A model generated the notes under the pieces. That model did no database searches, was not told the DNA's origin, and saw nothing but the letters and a program-made list of their open reading frames with translations. Shown piece by piece: positions 18,571 through 23,897 of a DNA stretch of 32,083 bases (position 1 is its first letter; every line of letters begins with the position of its first letter). The stretch is from assembly GCA_017990495.1 (NCBI GenBank), contig JAGNNV010000016.1, forward strand, positions 1 to 32,083, read 5' to 3'. The translations under genes were made by a program, and so were the position numbers. The stretch comes from Vicinamibacteria bacterium. Lineage in GTDB: Bacteria; Acidobacteriota; Vicinamibacteria; Fen-336; JAGNNV01.

Positions 18571-19494
18571 CTACGGCTGGCAGTGGTCGAGCCAGGCGGC
18601 GTAGCGTGATTCCTGGCCGGTGGCGGCGCGCCTGAAGGTCTCGGCGAGGCGGGTGGTGATGGGACCTCGCACGCCGGACCCGATGGGCCGGAAGTCCAGT
18701 TCGCGGATGCCGAGAACCTCGGCCGCGGTGCCGCACACGAAGAGTTCGTCGGCCACGTAGAGCTGATCGCGCGTGAGCGCCTCTTCCCGCACCTCGTAGC
18801 CGAGATCACGGGCGATCGTGATCACGCTGTCGCGGGTGAGGCCCTCGAGGACGGTGGCGCGGTGGGGGGTGTAAAGCACGCCCTTGCGCACCGCGAAGAG
18901 ATTCTCCCCCGTGCCCTCGGCCACGAGGCCGGTGGGGTCGAGCATGAGCGCCTCATCGAAACCGAGTCGCGCCGATTCCGTGCGGGCCAGCACCGAGTTC
19001 CCGTAGTTCCCCGCGAGCTTCGACTTGGTCATCATGACGTTCGGGTGGTGGCGAGTGAACGACGAGACGTTGGCGCGCAGTCCGGAGGCCTCCGCTTCAG
19101 GGGAGACAAAGCCCTTCCATTCCCAGGCCGCGATGCCGAGGCCGGGCACGATGCCGAGCAGGTTCAGGCCCATGTGACCCGAGGCCGCGAAGAGGAGGGG
19201 GCGCACGTAGCACTCGGTGAAGCCGTTCTCCCGCACCACCGCTTTCGATCCTTCGATCACTTCCTCTTCGGTCCACGGCAGGGCCAGGAAGCCGAAGATG
19301 CGCGCGCTGGCGAAGAGTCGGGTGATGTGCTCCTTGAGCCTGAAAATGGCCGGACCCTTCGGCGTGTTGTAGGCCCGCATCCCTTCAAAGACCGCGGTCC
19401 CGTAGTGGAGGGCGGGGGTGAGAAACGGAACAACCGCCTTTTCCTGGGGGACGAGGGCCCCATTCATCCAGACGAACTTCGACTCGAGATTCAT
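18571..19494 (-). CDS. ilvE: Branched-chain amino acid aminotransferase, E. coli IlvE type
   Basis: This 307-residue PLP-dependent class IV transaminase catalyses the last step of Leu, Ile and Val synthesis. The short E. coli-like form is recognised by FVWMNGALVPQEKA, TPALHYGTAVFEGMRAY, CYVRPLLFAASGHMGLN, TKSKLAGNYGNSVLA with the Schiff-base lysine K159, LVAEGTGENLFAV, and LTRDSVITIARDLGY. It is a different subtype from the 373-residue BCAT at 2994-4115. It is preceded by a Leu/Ile/Val-rich leader ORF, an antiterminator/terminator pair and a 51-codon ORF that ends 10 nt before its ATG. It is therefore probably controlled by attenuation and by translational coupling. A TAGGCT box also lies 7 nt before ATG and overlaps the stop of the small ORF, so an internal leaderless start is possible. 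Confidence 0.94.
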   Translation of the reverse strand: MNLESKFVWMNGALVPQEKAVVPFLTPALHYGTAVFEGMRAYNTPKGPAIFRLKEHITRLFASARIFGFLALPWTEEEVIEGSKAVVRENGFTECYVRPLLFAASGHMGLNLLGIVPGLGIAAWEWKGFVSPEAEASGLRANVSSFTRHHPNVMMTKSKLAGNYGNSVLARTESARLGFDEALMLDPTGLVAEGTGENLFAVRKGVLYTPHRATVLEGLTRDSVITIARDLGYEVREEALTRDQLYVADELFVCGTAAEVLGIRELDFRPIGSGVRGPITTRLAETFRRAATGQESRYAAWLDHCQP

Positions 19495-19504
19495 GGGGCA
19501 AAGC

Positions 19505-19660
19505 CTAAACGCCCCAGCCGTACCCCCGCTCTGTGGTCTCGCGAAAATCGGCGGCCTCGTCCCGGCGCTCGGGCTCGGCGTCGCGGGGCCTTGGAGAGGA
19601 GGCGTCGGCTCGAGCCTCGCGGGACTCTTTGGTTGTTTCGGGTTCTTTGGCGGCGTTCAT
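19505..19660 (-). CDS. Small unrecognised 51-residue protein between attenuator and ilvE
   Basis: This short ORF has a good ribosome binding site (AAGGA at 19668-19672, 7 nt before ATG). It starts 27 nt after the terminator stem and stops 10 nt before ilvE. The product is hydrophilic and highly charged (many Glu, Arg, Asp and Ala), with a contrasting Gly/aromatic C-terminus, ERGYGWGV. Most codons end in G or C, as in neighbouring genes. I do not recognise the family. It could be a real small protein, a translational coupler feeding ribosomes to ilvE, or a second regulatory ORF. No signal peptide or membrane segment is present. Confidence 0.6.
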   Translation of the reverse strand: MNAAKEPETTKESREARADASSPRPRDAEPERRDEAADFRETTERGYGWGV

Positions 19661-19676
19661 GTTCTTTTCCTTGCTC

Positions 19677-19709
19677 AAAAATGAAAACCCCCGAGGTTTC
19701 CCTCGGGGG
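19677..19709 (-). terminator. Intrinsic terminator (attenuator) upstream of ilvE
   Basis: The arms CCCCCGAGG (19688-19696) and CCTCGGGGG (19701-19709) form a perfect 9-bp stem with a 4-nt loop. On the minus strand it is followed by TTTTCATTTTT (19687-19677), a classic U-tract. It lies between the leader ORF and the 51-codon ORF/ilvE, so it can abort transcription before ilvE. It also lies downstream of the DAHP synthase gene and could end that transcript. The plus-strand side lacks a good U-run. Confidence 0.85.
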
Positions 19710-19756
19710 CCTTTCGTCTCGCGGAAGCTTTATCGCTTCGCTAGACGGGACCCCCG
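19704..19756 (-). promoter_or_regulatory. Antiterminator helix competing with the ilvE terminator
   Basis: On the minus-strand RNA, CGGGGGUC (19756-19749, codons 32-35 of the leader ORF) can pair with GGCCCCCG (19711-19704). That segment takes most of the 5' arm of the terminator stem. The helix encloses and can stack on a second hairpin at 19747-19715: CGUCU/AGACG, then GCG/CGC and AAGC/GCUU around the loop GAUAAA. The leader stop codon (19741-19743) lies inside that hairpin. A ribosome reaching the stop would disrupt this structure and allow termination; one stalled earlier would leave it intact. Pairings were found by eye, and no energies were computed. Confidence 0.7.
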
Positions 19757-19851
19757 CCCGTAAGGACGATAAGAATGAGGCCAATAACCAGGGCGAGCGA
19801 CGACACGTCGCTCCGCAGGCGGTTGTGGCTCAGAAGGGTCTTGGTGGACAT
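19741..19851 (-). CDS. Leader peptide rich in Leu/Ile/Val, ilv-type attenuation
   Basis: This 36-codon ORF (ATG 19851, TAG ending at 19741) has codons 19-30 reading LALVIGLILIVL: ten of twelve residues are branched-chain amino acids. Its tail is TGGGPV. This is the composition of leader peptides such as those of the enteric ilv operons, in which ribosome stalling at scarce Leu/Ile/Val-tRNA controls a downstream terminator. It has its own promoter 9 nt upstream and no Shine-Dalgarno sequence, and it is followed by the antiterminator and terminator before ilvE. A small membrane peptide is the alternative reading, since the run is hydrophobic, but the placement favours attenuation. Confidence 0.8.
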   Translation of the reverse strand: MSTKTLLSHNRLRSDVSSLALVIGLILIVLTGGGPV

Positions 19852-19860
19852 CGAGGGCGG

Positions 19861-19890
19861 AGCGTACGGGGTGAAGCGAGTTGATGTCAA
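19861..19890 (-). promoter_or_regulatory. Promoter of the ilvE leader
   Basis: On the minus strand, consensus TTGACA (19890-19885) is followed by an 18-nt spacer and TACGCT (19866-19861), 9 nt before the leader ATG. The -35 box overlaps the stop codon of the DAHP synthase gene (19887-19889). The leader message would be leaderless or nearly so. Confidence 0.7.
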
Positions 19891-20744
19891 GCGTTCGAAC
19901 CAGAAGCCCGGGTGGTGAAGGGGAGAACCCGCGGACTTTCGAAAGAGCGGCCGCAGGCATCCGCGATGAGGCCGGCGTCTTTCATCAGGGCCTCGAAGGC
20001 CTCGAGAGACAGGCTCTGCGCGCCATCCGACAGCGCCCGTTCGGGGGCGTCATGAACCTCGATCATCACCGCGTCCGCACCCGCGGCGATGGCAGCCTTG
20101 GTCATCGGGGCCACACCGTCACGGCGCCCGGTGCCGTGAGAGGGGTCGATGGCGATGGGGAGATGGGAGAGAGCGCGCACCACGGGAATGGCGGAGAGAT
20201 CGAGGGTGTTGCGGGTGGCGCTCTCGAAGGTACGGATCCCGCGCTCGCAGAGGATGACGTTGGGATTGCCCTCGGCGAGGATGTACTCGGCCGCGAGCAG
20301 CCACTCTTCGATGGTCGCGGACATGCCGCGCTTCAACAGGACGGCGTTGGGGACGCGCCCCAGTTCGCGAAGCAGATCGAAGTTCTGCATGTTCCGCGTC
20401 CCCACCTGAAGGCAGTCGACCACGCGGGCCATCGACTCGACCTTGCGCACGTCCATCACCTCGCTCACGATTCTGAGCCCGGTCATAGCCCGGGCCTCGC
20501 CCAGCCACTTGAGCGCGTCATCTCCATGCCCCTGGAAGGAATACGGAGAGGTCCGAGGCTTGAACGCCCCGCCCCGCAGCAAGTGCGCGCCGGAAGCCTT
20601 CACAGACCGGGCGATGCGCATTAGATGGTCATGGCTCTCCACCGCACAGGGACCGGCGATGATGACGGTCTGACGACCGCCCACAACCACGTCACCGATC
20701 GAGACCTCGGTGGGCTCGGGTTTCGTGTTCCGCGACGATTTCAT
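19887..20744 (-). CDS. aroF: 3-deoxy-7-phosphoheptulonate (DAHP) synthase, type I beta
   Basis: This 285-residue TIM-barrel enzyme condenses phosphoenolpyruvate and erythrose 4-phosphate, the first step of the shikimate pathway. It belongs to the DAHP/KDO8P synthase group: AGPCAVES (30-37), LRGGAFKPRTSPYSFQG, LQVGTRNMQNFDLL, VLLKRGMSAT, NVILCERGIRTFE and the metal/substrate block IAIDPSHGTGRRD. Only about 25 residues precede the barrel. The ferredoxin-like or ACT/chorismate-mutase regulatory domain of many relatives is absent, so feedback control may be missing or act through another mechanism (inference). TAGACT ends 10 nt before ATG. The ilvE leader promoter begins at its stop codon, placing aromatic and branched-chain genes side by side. 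Confidence 0.93.
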   Translation of the reverse strand: MKSSRNTKPEPTEVSIGDVVVGGRQTVIIAGPCAVESHDHLMRIARSVKASGAHLLRGGAFKPRTSPYSFQGHGDDALKWLGEARAMTGLRIVSEVMDVRKVESMARVVDCLQVGTRNMQNFDLLRELGRVPNAVLLKRGMSATIEEWLLAAEYILAEGNPNVILCERGIRTFESATRNTLDLSAIPVVRALSHLPIAIDPSHGTGRRDGVAPMTKAAIAAGADAVMIEVHDAPERALSDGAQSLSLEAFEALMKDAGLIADACGRSFESPRVLPFTTRASGSNA

Positions 20745-20754
20745 GGGAAAGCGC

Positions 20755-20760
20755 AGTCTA
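20755..20760 (-). promoter_or_regulatory. Candidate -10 box of the DAHP synthase gene
   Basis: TAGACT on the minus strand ends 10 nt before ATG 20744, with no Shine-Dalgarno sequence between. The region about 17 nt further upstream is a GC hairpin and gives no -35 match. Confidence 0.4.
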
Positions 20761-20765
20761 TGCGC

Positions 20766-20794
20766 GCGGGGCGGCCCGGGCGGAGCCGCCCCGC
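20766..20794 (-). terminator. Strong GC hairpin after the Asp-box protein gene
   Basis: GCGGGGCGGC (20766-20775) and GCCGCCCCGC (20785-20794) form a perfect 10-bp stem with a 9-nt loop. It starts 7 nt beyond the stop codon of the minus-strand Asp-box gene and lies just upstream of the DAHP synthase -10 box. There is no U-tract on the minus strand, so termination would be weak or factor-dependent. Confidence 0.55.
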
Positions 20795-20801
20795 TTTGGG
20801 A

Positions 20802-23800
20802 CTATTTCTTCTTGCGCCAGATCTCTTCGGTCATGGGGGCGATGGGCGCGAGTTTCCGTTTGGCGAATTCGGCATTCAGCGCCGCCGTCTCCTTGGCCAC
20901 GCCACCGAACTTGGCCCAGGCCGCCTCGAGGTCGCGGGAAAGTGCGCTCATGCGGTCGAGCTGCGACTTCGTCGGACGTCCGTTGTAGGCGTTCACGTTG
21001 CCGTAAAGCATCCCGAGTTCCTCGCGGAGTTTCTCTTCGCCCGAGATTCCCTCGCCCTCCTGCTGAGCCACCAGGGCCACGCGCTGGGCCTCGAGACCGG
21101 CGGCGAAGGCGCTCACCCGCTTCGACAGTCCGGTTTCCTTCGGTCCGATCTTGCCTATCCGATCGTTCGCCTGATCCCGAAGATCAGCGATCGACTCGAC
21201 GAGCCAGGTCAGGCGTTCCACCAGGGCGAACAACTTCGCCGTGGTCTCAAGCTGCAGGGTTTGATCGGCCGCGCTGTAGGTGACCCGCGGGTCGCCCACC
21301 AGCGTGACTTCGCCTTTGTGGGTGTCCTTGTTCTTGATGGCAGTGACGGTGTATTTCCCCGCGGTGGCGCGCGCGCCGAAGAACGCGCCCAGGCTCGGGA
21401 TCACGCCGGCCCCGGCGGCGAAGCGGGGAGCCGGCTCGCGGGTGGCCCAGTGAATCCGGTTCACTCCGCGGCGTTTGGTGGCGGGGATGGTGGCGAGAAG
21501 CCGCCCGGCTCCATCGCGCACCTCGAACTTGAAATCGCCCACCACGTGACGACGCTTGGAGTAGTAGACGATGGCGGCGCCGCCGTCGGGGCTGACGCCC
21601 GCGAACTCATGATCGCCCTGCCAGGGCACGCCGCCGAAGCCGCCACCCTCGATCAGGAGCTGACCGGGACGGGTGGGCAGGAAGGCGAAGTCGGCGTCGA
21701 GGATGGCGGGGTTCAGGGCGCGCAGGGGCGTGATGTCGTCAACCACGTAGATGCCGCGGCCGTGGGTGGCGAGGACCAGGTCGTGATCGCGCGGGTGGAC
21801 CACGAGATCACGCACCGGAACCATGGGCAGGCCGCTCGTGAACTGGGCCCACTGCTTGCCGCCGTCGATGGTGAGGAAGAGGCCGGTCTCGGTGCCGAGG
21901 AAGAGCAGATCCGGGTTCACGGTGTCCTGTTTGACCACATGCGCGAAGCCCTTGGTGTCAGCGGTCGAAAGCGAGGTCCAGGTCTTGCCGAAGTCGGTGG
22001 TCCGCGCGACATAGGTGTTCATGTCGCCGGTCATGTGACCGTCGAAGGTGGCGAACGCGGTGGCTTCGTCGTGGGGCGAGGCGTCGACGCGGGAGACCCA
22101 GGTTCCCTTCGGAACGGGCACGCTCGCGGCAACGTTCGTCCAGGTCTTGCCACCGTCCCGGGTCACCTGGAGATTGCCGTCGTCGGTTCCCACCCAGATC
22201 ACCGAAGGATTCTTCGGCGACTCGCTGATGGCGAAGATGGTGGTGTGGTTCTCGGCCGTGGAGTTGTCGCGAGTGAGGCCCCCGGATTCGAGCTGGCGCT
22301 GCTTCTTCGGATCGTTGGTGGTGAGATCGGGCGAGATCTTCTGCCAGCTTTCGCCCCGGTCATTCGACCGGAACAGGAACTGCGCGCCGATGTAGAGCAC
22401 ACCCTTCTGGGTGGGCGAGAGGTGGATCGGGGTATTCCAGTTGAAGCGGTACTTGGGATCGCCCACGACCGGTGAGGGTTTGATGTCTTTCTGCTCGCCG
22501 GTCTTCCGACTGGTGCGGAAGATGTTGCCGCCCTGGTATTCGCTGTAGACGAGGTCCTCATCGAGGGGGTCAGGGAAAACCCAGAATCCATCGCCACCGC
22601 TGATCGAACGCCAGTCGCGGTTCCCGATGGGCCCGTTCCCGCGCGAAGGGCCCCACCACGAATTGTTGTCCTGCAGGCCGCCGTAGACGTTGAAGGGGAA
22701 CTCCATGTCGACAGCCACGTGGTAGTACTGGGCCAGGGGAAGGTTCTCCACGAAGAGCCACCGGTTGCCGCGATCCCACGAGTGGTAGGCGCCGCCGTCG
22801 GAGCCCATGAGCAACTCGTCGGTGTTCTTCGGGTTGATCCAGAGCGCGTGCACGTCGACGTGGAAATTCCCGGACAGCGCACTCCAGGTCCGGCCACCGT
22901 CATCGGAGGTGGCCGCCACCGTGCTCATCTTGTAGATGCGGTTGGGATTCTTCGGATCGCCAACCAGGCGCGAGTAATAGAAGGGCCGGCCCGCCACCAC
23001 CGACGCGTTGCTCATCAGGGTCCAGGTTTCCCCGGCATCTTCAGAGCGATAAAGACCCGAGGGTTTCGCCTCGACCGAGGCGTAGACGACACTCGACTTC
23101 GCGGGCGAAACCTCGACCGCGATGCGGCCCAGATCCCCCGCGGGCAATCCGTTCGTCAGCTTGCGCCAGGTGGCCCCGCCATCCGTCGACTTGAACAAAC
23201 CGCTCTTCGGACCACCGGAGTTGAAGAAGTCGGGCGAGCGGCGGTGCTGCCACATCGCGGCGTAGACGACCTTGCCGTCCTTCGGATCGATCGACAGGTC
23301 GGCGCAGCCGGTGTCGGGCGCGCCGGCAAGCGCCTTCTCCCAGGTCTTGCCCGCGTCTTTCGTGACATAGACACCGCGGTCGTCGCTGTCGTTGAAGAGC
23401 GGCCCCAGGGCGCAGGCAAAGACCTTGGCGGAGTCGGAGGGATCGATGGCGACCCGGGCGATGCGCTCGGTCTTCTCGAGCCCCAGCTTCTGCCAGTTGT
23501 CGCCGCCATCGGTGGAGCGATAGATCCCGTCCCCGACGGAAACGCTGTTGCGCACCCAGGTTTCACCGGTTCCCACCCAGATCGTCTTGGGGTTCTTGGG
23601 GTCGACCTTGAGATCACCCACCGATGGGTTGTACTTGTCGAAGATCGGTTTGAACCGCACGCCACCGTCGTCGGACTTCCACACCCCTCCCGAGGCCGCG
23701 CCGACGTAAACGGTGAGGCGGTCTCCCGCCACCCCATCGAGGGCGGAAACGCGGCCGCTCATCACCGCGGGCCCGATGCTTCGGGCTTCGAGTCCGCCGA

Positions 23801-23897
23801 AGGTATCGGAATCGACCTTAAGGCCCTGGGCGGACGACGCGGAGGCGAGCCCGAGGGCCAGCACGGCCCCCGGAATGAGAGAGATGTGGAGTTTCAT
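20802..23897 (-). CDS. Secreted Asp-box (sortilin/BNR-type) beta-propeller protein
   Basis: This 1031-residue protein has a signal peptide (about 1-24, ending SASSAQG). It is dominated by Asp-box repeats, SxDxGxTW-like turns of beta-propeller blades. I see about ten: SDDGGVRF, STDGGDNW, TKDAGKTW, STDGGATW, SEDAGETW, SDDGGRTW, SNDRGESW, TRDGGKTW, TTDFGKTW, TIDGGKQW. This spacing matches the sortilin/VPS10-like glycosyl-hydrolase-related proteins common in Acidobacteriota and Bacteroidota. These are mostly annotated only by fold; some are thought to bind or cut glycans or peptides. Beyond about residue 700 the repeats end. A beta region (FKFEVRDGAGRLL) and a helical, charged C-terminal part follow. 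It starts 10 nt after the LolA-like gene, so the two form an operon. Confidence 0.87.
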   Translation of the reverse strand: MKLHISLIPGAVLALGLASASSAQGLKVDSDTFGGLEARSIGPAVMSGRVSALDGVAGDRLTVYVGAASGGVWKSDDGGVRFKPIFDKYNPSVGDLKVDPKNPKTIWVGTGETWVRNSVSVGDGIYRSTDGGDNWQKLGLEKTERIARVAIDPSDSAKVFACALGPLFNDSDDRGVYVTKDAGKTWEKALAGAPDTGCADLSIDPKDGKVVYAAMWQHRRSPDFFNSGGPKSGLFKSTDGGATWRKLTNGLPAGDLGRIAVEVSPAKSSVVYASVEAKPSGLYRSEDAGETWTLMSNASVVAGRPFYYSRLVGDPKNPNRIYKMSTVAATSDDGGRTWSALSGNFHVDVHALWINPKNTDELLMGSDGGAYHSWDRGNRWLFVENLPLAQYYHVAVDMEFPFNVYGGLQDNNSWWGPSRGNGPIGNRDWRSISGGDGFWVFPDPLDEDLVYSEYQGGNIFRTSRKTGEQKDIKPSPVVGDPKYRFNWNTPIHLSPTQKGVLYIGAQFLFRSNDRGESWQKISPDLTTNDPKKQRQLESGGLTRDNSTAENHTTIFAISESPKNPSVIWVGTDDGNLQVTRDGGKTWTNVAASVPVPKGTWVSRVDASPHDEATAFATFDGHMTGDMNTYVARTTDFGKTWTSLSTADTKGFAHVVKQDTVNPDLLFLGTETGLFLTIDGGKQWAQFTSGLPMVPVRDLVVHPRDHDLVLATHGRGIYVVDDITPLRALNPAILDADFAFLPTRPGQLLIEGGGFGGVPWQGDHEFAGVSPDGGAAIVYYSKRRHVVGDFKFEVRDGAGRLLATIPATKRRGVNRIHWATREPAPRFAAGAGVIPSLGAFFGARATAGKYTVTAIKNKDTHKGEVTLVGDPRVTYSAADQTLQLETTAKLFALVERLTWLVESIADLRDQANDRIGKIGPKETGLSKRVSAFAAGLEAQRVALVAQQEGEGISGEEKLREELGMLYGNVNAYNGRPTKSQLDRMSALSRDLEAAWAKFGGVAKETAALNAEFAKRKLAPIAPMTEEIWRKKK

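Follow-up and report, generated by a model that had tools for sequence, protein, structure and literature searches.

In the Calvin cycle, the CP12/GapB C-terminal extension (PMC4436894) has two kinds of carrier, a small disordered protein that works in trans and, as a fusion, an enzyme of that pathway; it is the described system to which, by analogy, the C-terminal tail reported here appears to come closest in its way of working. The likeness lies in the carriers, the same tail having been found on standalone open reading frames (ORFs) and at the C-termini of LeuA, LeuB, LeuC and CimA. The tail is not a member of that system, however: it has neither a sequence relation to CP12/GapB nor the cysteine pair (no cysteine occurs in LeuX, the small protein described below, or in its two congener ORFs, and there was no Pfam match), and it is common to at least four different enzymes. 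A second precedent is the cytosolic Fe-S assembly system of eukaryotes, whose targeting complex recognition motif is a C-terminal [LIM]-[DES]-[WF]-COOH (PMC10623007). There too a very short C-terminal peptide is carried by clients or adaptors, isopropylmalate isomerase being one of the clients; the tail studied here, in contrast, is bacterial, ends in V (acidobacterial tails finish in [G/A]V and lack the eukaryotic tripeptide) and is found on branched-chain genes rather than on Fe-S clients. Like the leader peptides of ilv/leu attenuators, LeuX is a short ORF within the leader of a branched-chain operon, but it lies downstream of the terminator, has a conserved tail and lacks a run of Leu/Ile/Val codons, the actual leader being a separate ORF upstream (19741-19851). 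No description of a bacterial leucine-pathway C-terminal tail was found in the open-access literature.

A small gene between a branched-chain attenuator and ilvE

The features that concern us within the window, that is, the whole stretch of 32,083 nucleotides analysed, are the following:

19741-19851, minus strand: branched-chain leader peptide MSTKTLLSHNRLRSDVSSLALVIGLILIVLTGGGPV, from translation; similar Leu/Ile/Val-rich leaders stand at the same place in the congeners G001 and G002
19677-19713, minus strand: attenuator terminator, a 13-pair hairpin and then a T-rich stretch, from a terminator scan; kept in G001, shorter in G002
19668-19672, minus strand: AAGGA, resembling a Shine-Dalgarno site and spaced 7 nt from the ATG of the ORF, read directly from the sequence
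19505-19660, minus strand: gene of the standalone tail protein, here called LeuX, 51 codons and a stop; place kept in G001 and G002, tail under purifying selection
19508-19549, minus strand: conserved C-terminal tail DFRETTERGYGWGV
19508-19525, minus strand: tail core GYGWGV, common to the C-termini of LeuA, LeuB, LeuC and CimA
18571-19494, minus strand: ilvE (branched-chain aminotransferase-like), an ORF and the next gene downstream of LeuX; the congener homologues are 86-88% identical, each behind a tail ORF

The leader peptide begins MSTKTLL, contains LALVIGLILIVL and ends in LALVIGLILIVLTGGGPV at its stop codon, with the terminator next, and the leader region of the window has a fold z-score of -4.8. 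The branched-chain attenuator upstream of LeuX is real; an Rfam scan of the region gave no match. The ORF behind it, as read from the window, translates into MNAAKEPETTKESREARADASSPRPRDAEPERRDEAADFRETTERGYGWGV, and its stop codon lies 10 nt upstream of the ilvE ATG. A sequence-only reading of this DNA had described a 51-residue ORF lodged between attenuator and ilvE, with an AAGGA ribosome binding site at 7-nt spacing and a stop 10 nt before ilvE; both distances are indeed to be read in the sequence, and the same placement recurs in the two congeners. Its remark that the codons end in G or C like those of local genes holds only moderately, GC3 being 0.75 in the LeuX ORF against 0.87 in ilvE, so that codon bias alone is insufficient to settle whether the ORF is a gene.

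Two further genomes of the genus (G001 and G002) were compared. In each, the interval from the same attenuator to ilvE contains an ORF of 51 codons ending DFRET.E.GYGWGV, with an alternative ATG possible two codons farther upstream in G001 and a longer gap from the stop to ilvE in G002 than in the window. Among the three ORFs the last 15 codons have a pS of 0.55-0.74 and a pN of 0.06-0.09, whereas the body (codons 1-35) has a pS of 0.45-0.71 and a pN of 0.38-0.48, a difference which indicates that selection acts on the amino acids of the tail and leaves the body to vary almost as a spacer would. The frameshifts, stops or lack of synonymous bias in relatives that the earlier reading had named as evidence against the ORF were looked for, and the ORF proved intact in both congeners, with many silent changes and the tail protein kept. 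These alignments place the tail under strong purifying selection in the genus, with an acidic body that is nearly unconstrained, and on the same comparative grounds the LeuX ORF is a real gene. Its product is probably a small, acidic, disordered protein with the C-terminal GYGWGV-COOH as its working part.

In a genome-wide pattern scan the standalone ORF was the sole Y..WGV match in each of G001 and G002, and the leuA-leuC-leuD genes of the genus found in these two genomes had no tail in the sequence examined. In the sister family f2 a tailed leuB stands beside ilvE, so that LeuX in this genus may be what remains of a tailed leuB that has been lost from its place upstream of ilvE. We also observed that G000, G001 and G002 have no LeuB above ~42% identity to the acidobacterial query, although G001 and G002 do have leuA and leuD; the role of LeuB may fall to a paralogue. 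As a separate observation, G001 (L339, C95) has an ilvB-ilvN-ilvC-ilvD cluster with its own branched-chain attenuator between sortilin-like and DAHP-synthase-like genes, and in the window (19887-23897) the sortilin-like and DAHP-synthase-like genes adjoin, that cluster being absent there.

Recurrence of the tail across Acidobacteriota

Throughout this phylum the motif Y(x)[W/H/F/Y][G/A]V, typically GYG[WHFY]GV, recurs at the C-termini of proteins. It is carried most often by LeuA, and by LeuB, LeuC, citramalate synthase, a cupin in an ilvC-ilvD-leuB cluster and standalone proteins of 29-83 aa; the names LeuA/B/C/D, citramalate synthase, cupin and IlvE come from similarity among the sequences and inspection, not from family scans, and many of the genomes surveyed are incomplete metagenome assemblies. 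The strict scan of public genomes for GYGWGV followed by a stop returned at least 119 stretches, mostly spurious ORFs without leucine-gene context, and some of these are internal Trp codons because the TRR of the scan pattern covers TGG too. Among the matches listed, those with leucine-gene context were all acidobacterial: LeuB C-termini (L057, L079, L142, L143), a 29-aa ORF in SZAS-17 (L053) and the two congeners. The matches in L093 and L119 were rejected as tails, as they lie out of frame inside a citramalate-synthase-like gene. The looser Y..WGV-stop pattern gave 15 matches in 12 acidobacterial genomes; in 11 of the 12 one match closes either LeuB or a small standalone ORF, and the rest are spurious, those in Acanthopleuribacter being spurious only. 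LeuB ends in SYEWGV in G005 and G011, where it stands beside ilvE, in YGWGV in G007 and G014, and in SEWGV in G003.

The class-wide search for GYG[FHYL]GV-stop found 81 matches in 74 of 193 genomes, against 7 with the reversed control, and the 50 matches inspected comprised 31 LeuA, 18 standalone ORFs and one unclear case. The LeuA tails of family f14, PDFxATPAExGYGHGV, match DFRETPERGYGWGV of G001 beyond the core. From a scan of the phylum came further standalone ORFs, lying between leuA and leuB (family f35 and G219), and tails that close a citramalate-synthase-like enzyme (G351, G359, G415). Standalone bodies consist to 64-96% of disorder-type residues, mostly acidic, and seven standalone proteins searched against Pfam-A and NCBIfam gave no match at E up to 1. 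The body sequence differs between clades, so that a common origin would be only one possibility for the standalone ORFs as a whole, convergence on a short motif being another. A cupin-like protein between ilvC and ilvD in family f23 (L246, 6897-7307; L260, 1645-2031) ends DPDQLLWAV, nearly the DPDQYLWGV tail of the f35 standalone ORFs. In family f30 (L236, L239) LeuA ends in RLIRLV or RLIHLV after long linkers, which may be a divergent version of the tail.

Around leuB, in 60 neighbourhoods, 25 of 9,518 ORFs (counting those of 25 codons or longer) end in the motif against one with the reversed pattern, a ratio that is descriptive and not a formal test because the motif was widened after variants had been seen. 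They comprise 10 LeuB, 5 LeuA, 2 LeuC, 6 standalone and 2 cupin-like proteins, the last two lying between ilvC and ilvD, upstream of leuB. No neighbourhood had more than one tailed ORF, and about half were tail-less by the pattern used. As these loci were chosen around leuB, restriction to branched-chain clusters is partly by design, a bias of which the genome-wide pattern searches are free. A strict rule of one tail per genome is ruled out: seven genomes (G472, G485, G486, G493, G495, G499, G512) combine a tailed LeuA with a standalone ORF, and a simple exchange of cis for trans carriers is therefore incomplete. The absence of the tail outside the phylum is based on two samples. In 24 genomes, of which nearly all belong to other phyla, LeuB had no tail, and 80 Gemmatimonadota genomes gave 3 pattern matches against 6 in the control, that is, background for a pattern that covers W, H and Y, not F.

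Terminators in front of the standalone genes

A script found a strong terminator directly before 12 standalone genes (window, G001, G002, L343, L358, L361, L365, L370, L371, L374, L377, L382), and one was seen by eye in L380, making at least 13 in total. A Leu/Ile/Val-rich leader was flagged in 8 of the 12 (window, G001, G002, L358, L365, L374, L377, L382); L380 has one upstream as well. The gene after the standalone ORF is convergent in L361, homoserine-dehydrogenase-like by eye in L357, L370 and L380, and looks unrelated elsewhere. In L361 the product must consequently act in trans, if it is active at all, and together with the terminators the convergent neighbour argues for action in trans and against mere delivery of ribosomes to ilvE. 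For the f35 ORFs that lie inside leuA-leuB the same script gave no separate terminator. Independently of this, in four loci of family f5 (L383-L386, genus g33) the standalone tail proteins have a longer conserved body, MTH.NRFDP..T..LAAL.GWA.., and the script found no terminator upstream of their genes.

Candidate functions of the tail

From these distributions we consider the chances about even that the GYGWGV-type tail serves as a portable docking peptide, recognised by a branched-chain partner and provided in cis on enzymes or in trans by LeuX. The tail would be bound by one partner of the branched-chain pathway, an enzyme or an enzyme complex; a tailed enzyme would supply the peptide in cis, and LeuX would supply it in trans where no enzyme has the tail, or where more of it is wanted. 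Attenuation would lead to LeuX being made when charged Leu/Ile/Val-tRNA is scarce, in which case docking would signal or assist high pathway flux, possibly by activation, by release of feedback inhibition or by assembly of an enzyme complex. A single-chain AF2 model of a tailed LeuB (5 sequences) reached a pLDDT of 41.6 and was not used. The earlier suggestion that the ERGYGWGV end is a conserved recognition site stands as to conservation, both by selection in the genus and by occurrence on LeuA, LeuB, LeuC, citramalate synthase and standalone ORFs across the phylum, while recognition itself is putative.

The motif always sits at the very C-terminus, just before the stop, and branched-chain genes often come after the tailed gene, as would be expected if the nascent tail sensed an amino acid, arrested ribosomes at the stop codon and thereby controlled the genes downstream, in a TnaC-like manner. 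A downstream gene in cis follows the tail ORF in the window and is absent in G422 and L361. We hold such arrest to be quite unlikely: the tail also ends last genes and genes in convergent positions with no controllable gene behind them, and the residues upstream of the core differ between clades.

It had also been proposed that the ORF serves to deliver ribosomes to ilvE; on a fuller version of this reading, its tail codons would act as Shine-Dalgarno sequence for the next gene. The stop 10 nt before an ilvE that has no clear Shine-Dalgarno site of its own speaks for such coupling, as do the f35 genomes, in which the ORF ends a few nt before leuB with TGGGGGGTGTGA. As the main role this finds no support and appears quite improbable, given the longer gap in G002, the convergent neighbours in G422 (leuD) and L361, and the amino acids that are conserved while silent positions vary freely; moreover, in the Acidobacteria loci examined the tail also ends a LeuB that no pathway gene follows. 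Local translational coupling to ilvE in the window species is possible.

A signal for cofactor maturation, by which the tail on clients or adaptors would recruit a maturation factor for the Fe-S enzymes LeuC and IlvD, has the eukaryotic precedent, which includes the isopropylmalate isomerase Leu1 and separate adaptors (PMC10623007); two LeuC proteins bear the tail, and isomerase-dehydrogenase complexes have been reported in a plant (PMC7876033). LeuA, LeuB and citramalate synthase, which make up most of the carriers, are not Fe-S enzymes, however, the motif ends in V and not in W/F, bacterial orthologues lack the tripeptide (PMC10623007) and no other tailed Fe-S enzyme was met in the loci examined, all of which makes this explanation doubtful in a high degree. 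A RiPP or other modified-peptide precursor, with GYGWGV as its modified core, would suit a small ORF whose body is variable and leader-like and whose C-terminal motif is aromatic and conserved. It is extremely improbable, since full-length LeuA, LeuB, LeuC and citramalate synthase finish in this tail too, and inspection of the neighbours by eye noticed no modification enzyme beside the ORF in the window.

Returning to the docking peptide, it is tempting to speculate that Acidobacteriota have an undescribed regulatory or assembly system specific to this pathway, in which one C-terminal hexapeptide and a dedicated receptor would control or assemble branched-chain synthesis; we advance this tentatively, at somewhat below even chances. 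That its carriers would be LeuA, LeuB, LeuC, citramalate synthase or free small proteins under branched-chain attenuation is likewise a serious but less than even possibility. If it is true, a motif of about six residues would unite overlooked small proteins and enzyme tails into one family, spread over a major soil phylum and belonging to a textbook pathway; bacteria would then offer a case in which several unrelated enzymes and free disordered proteins have one tail function in common. It would further suggest that attenuators can control a free-standing small protein.
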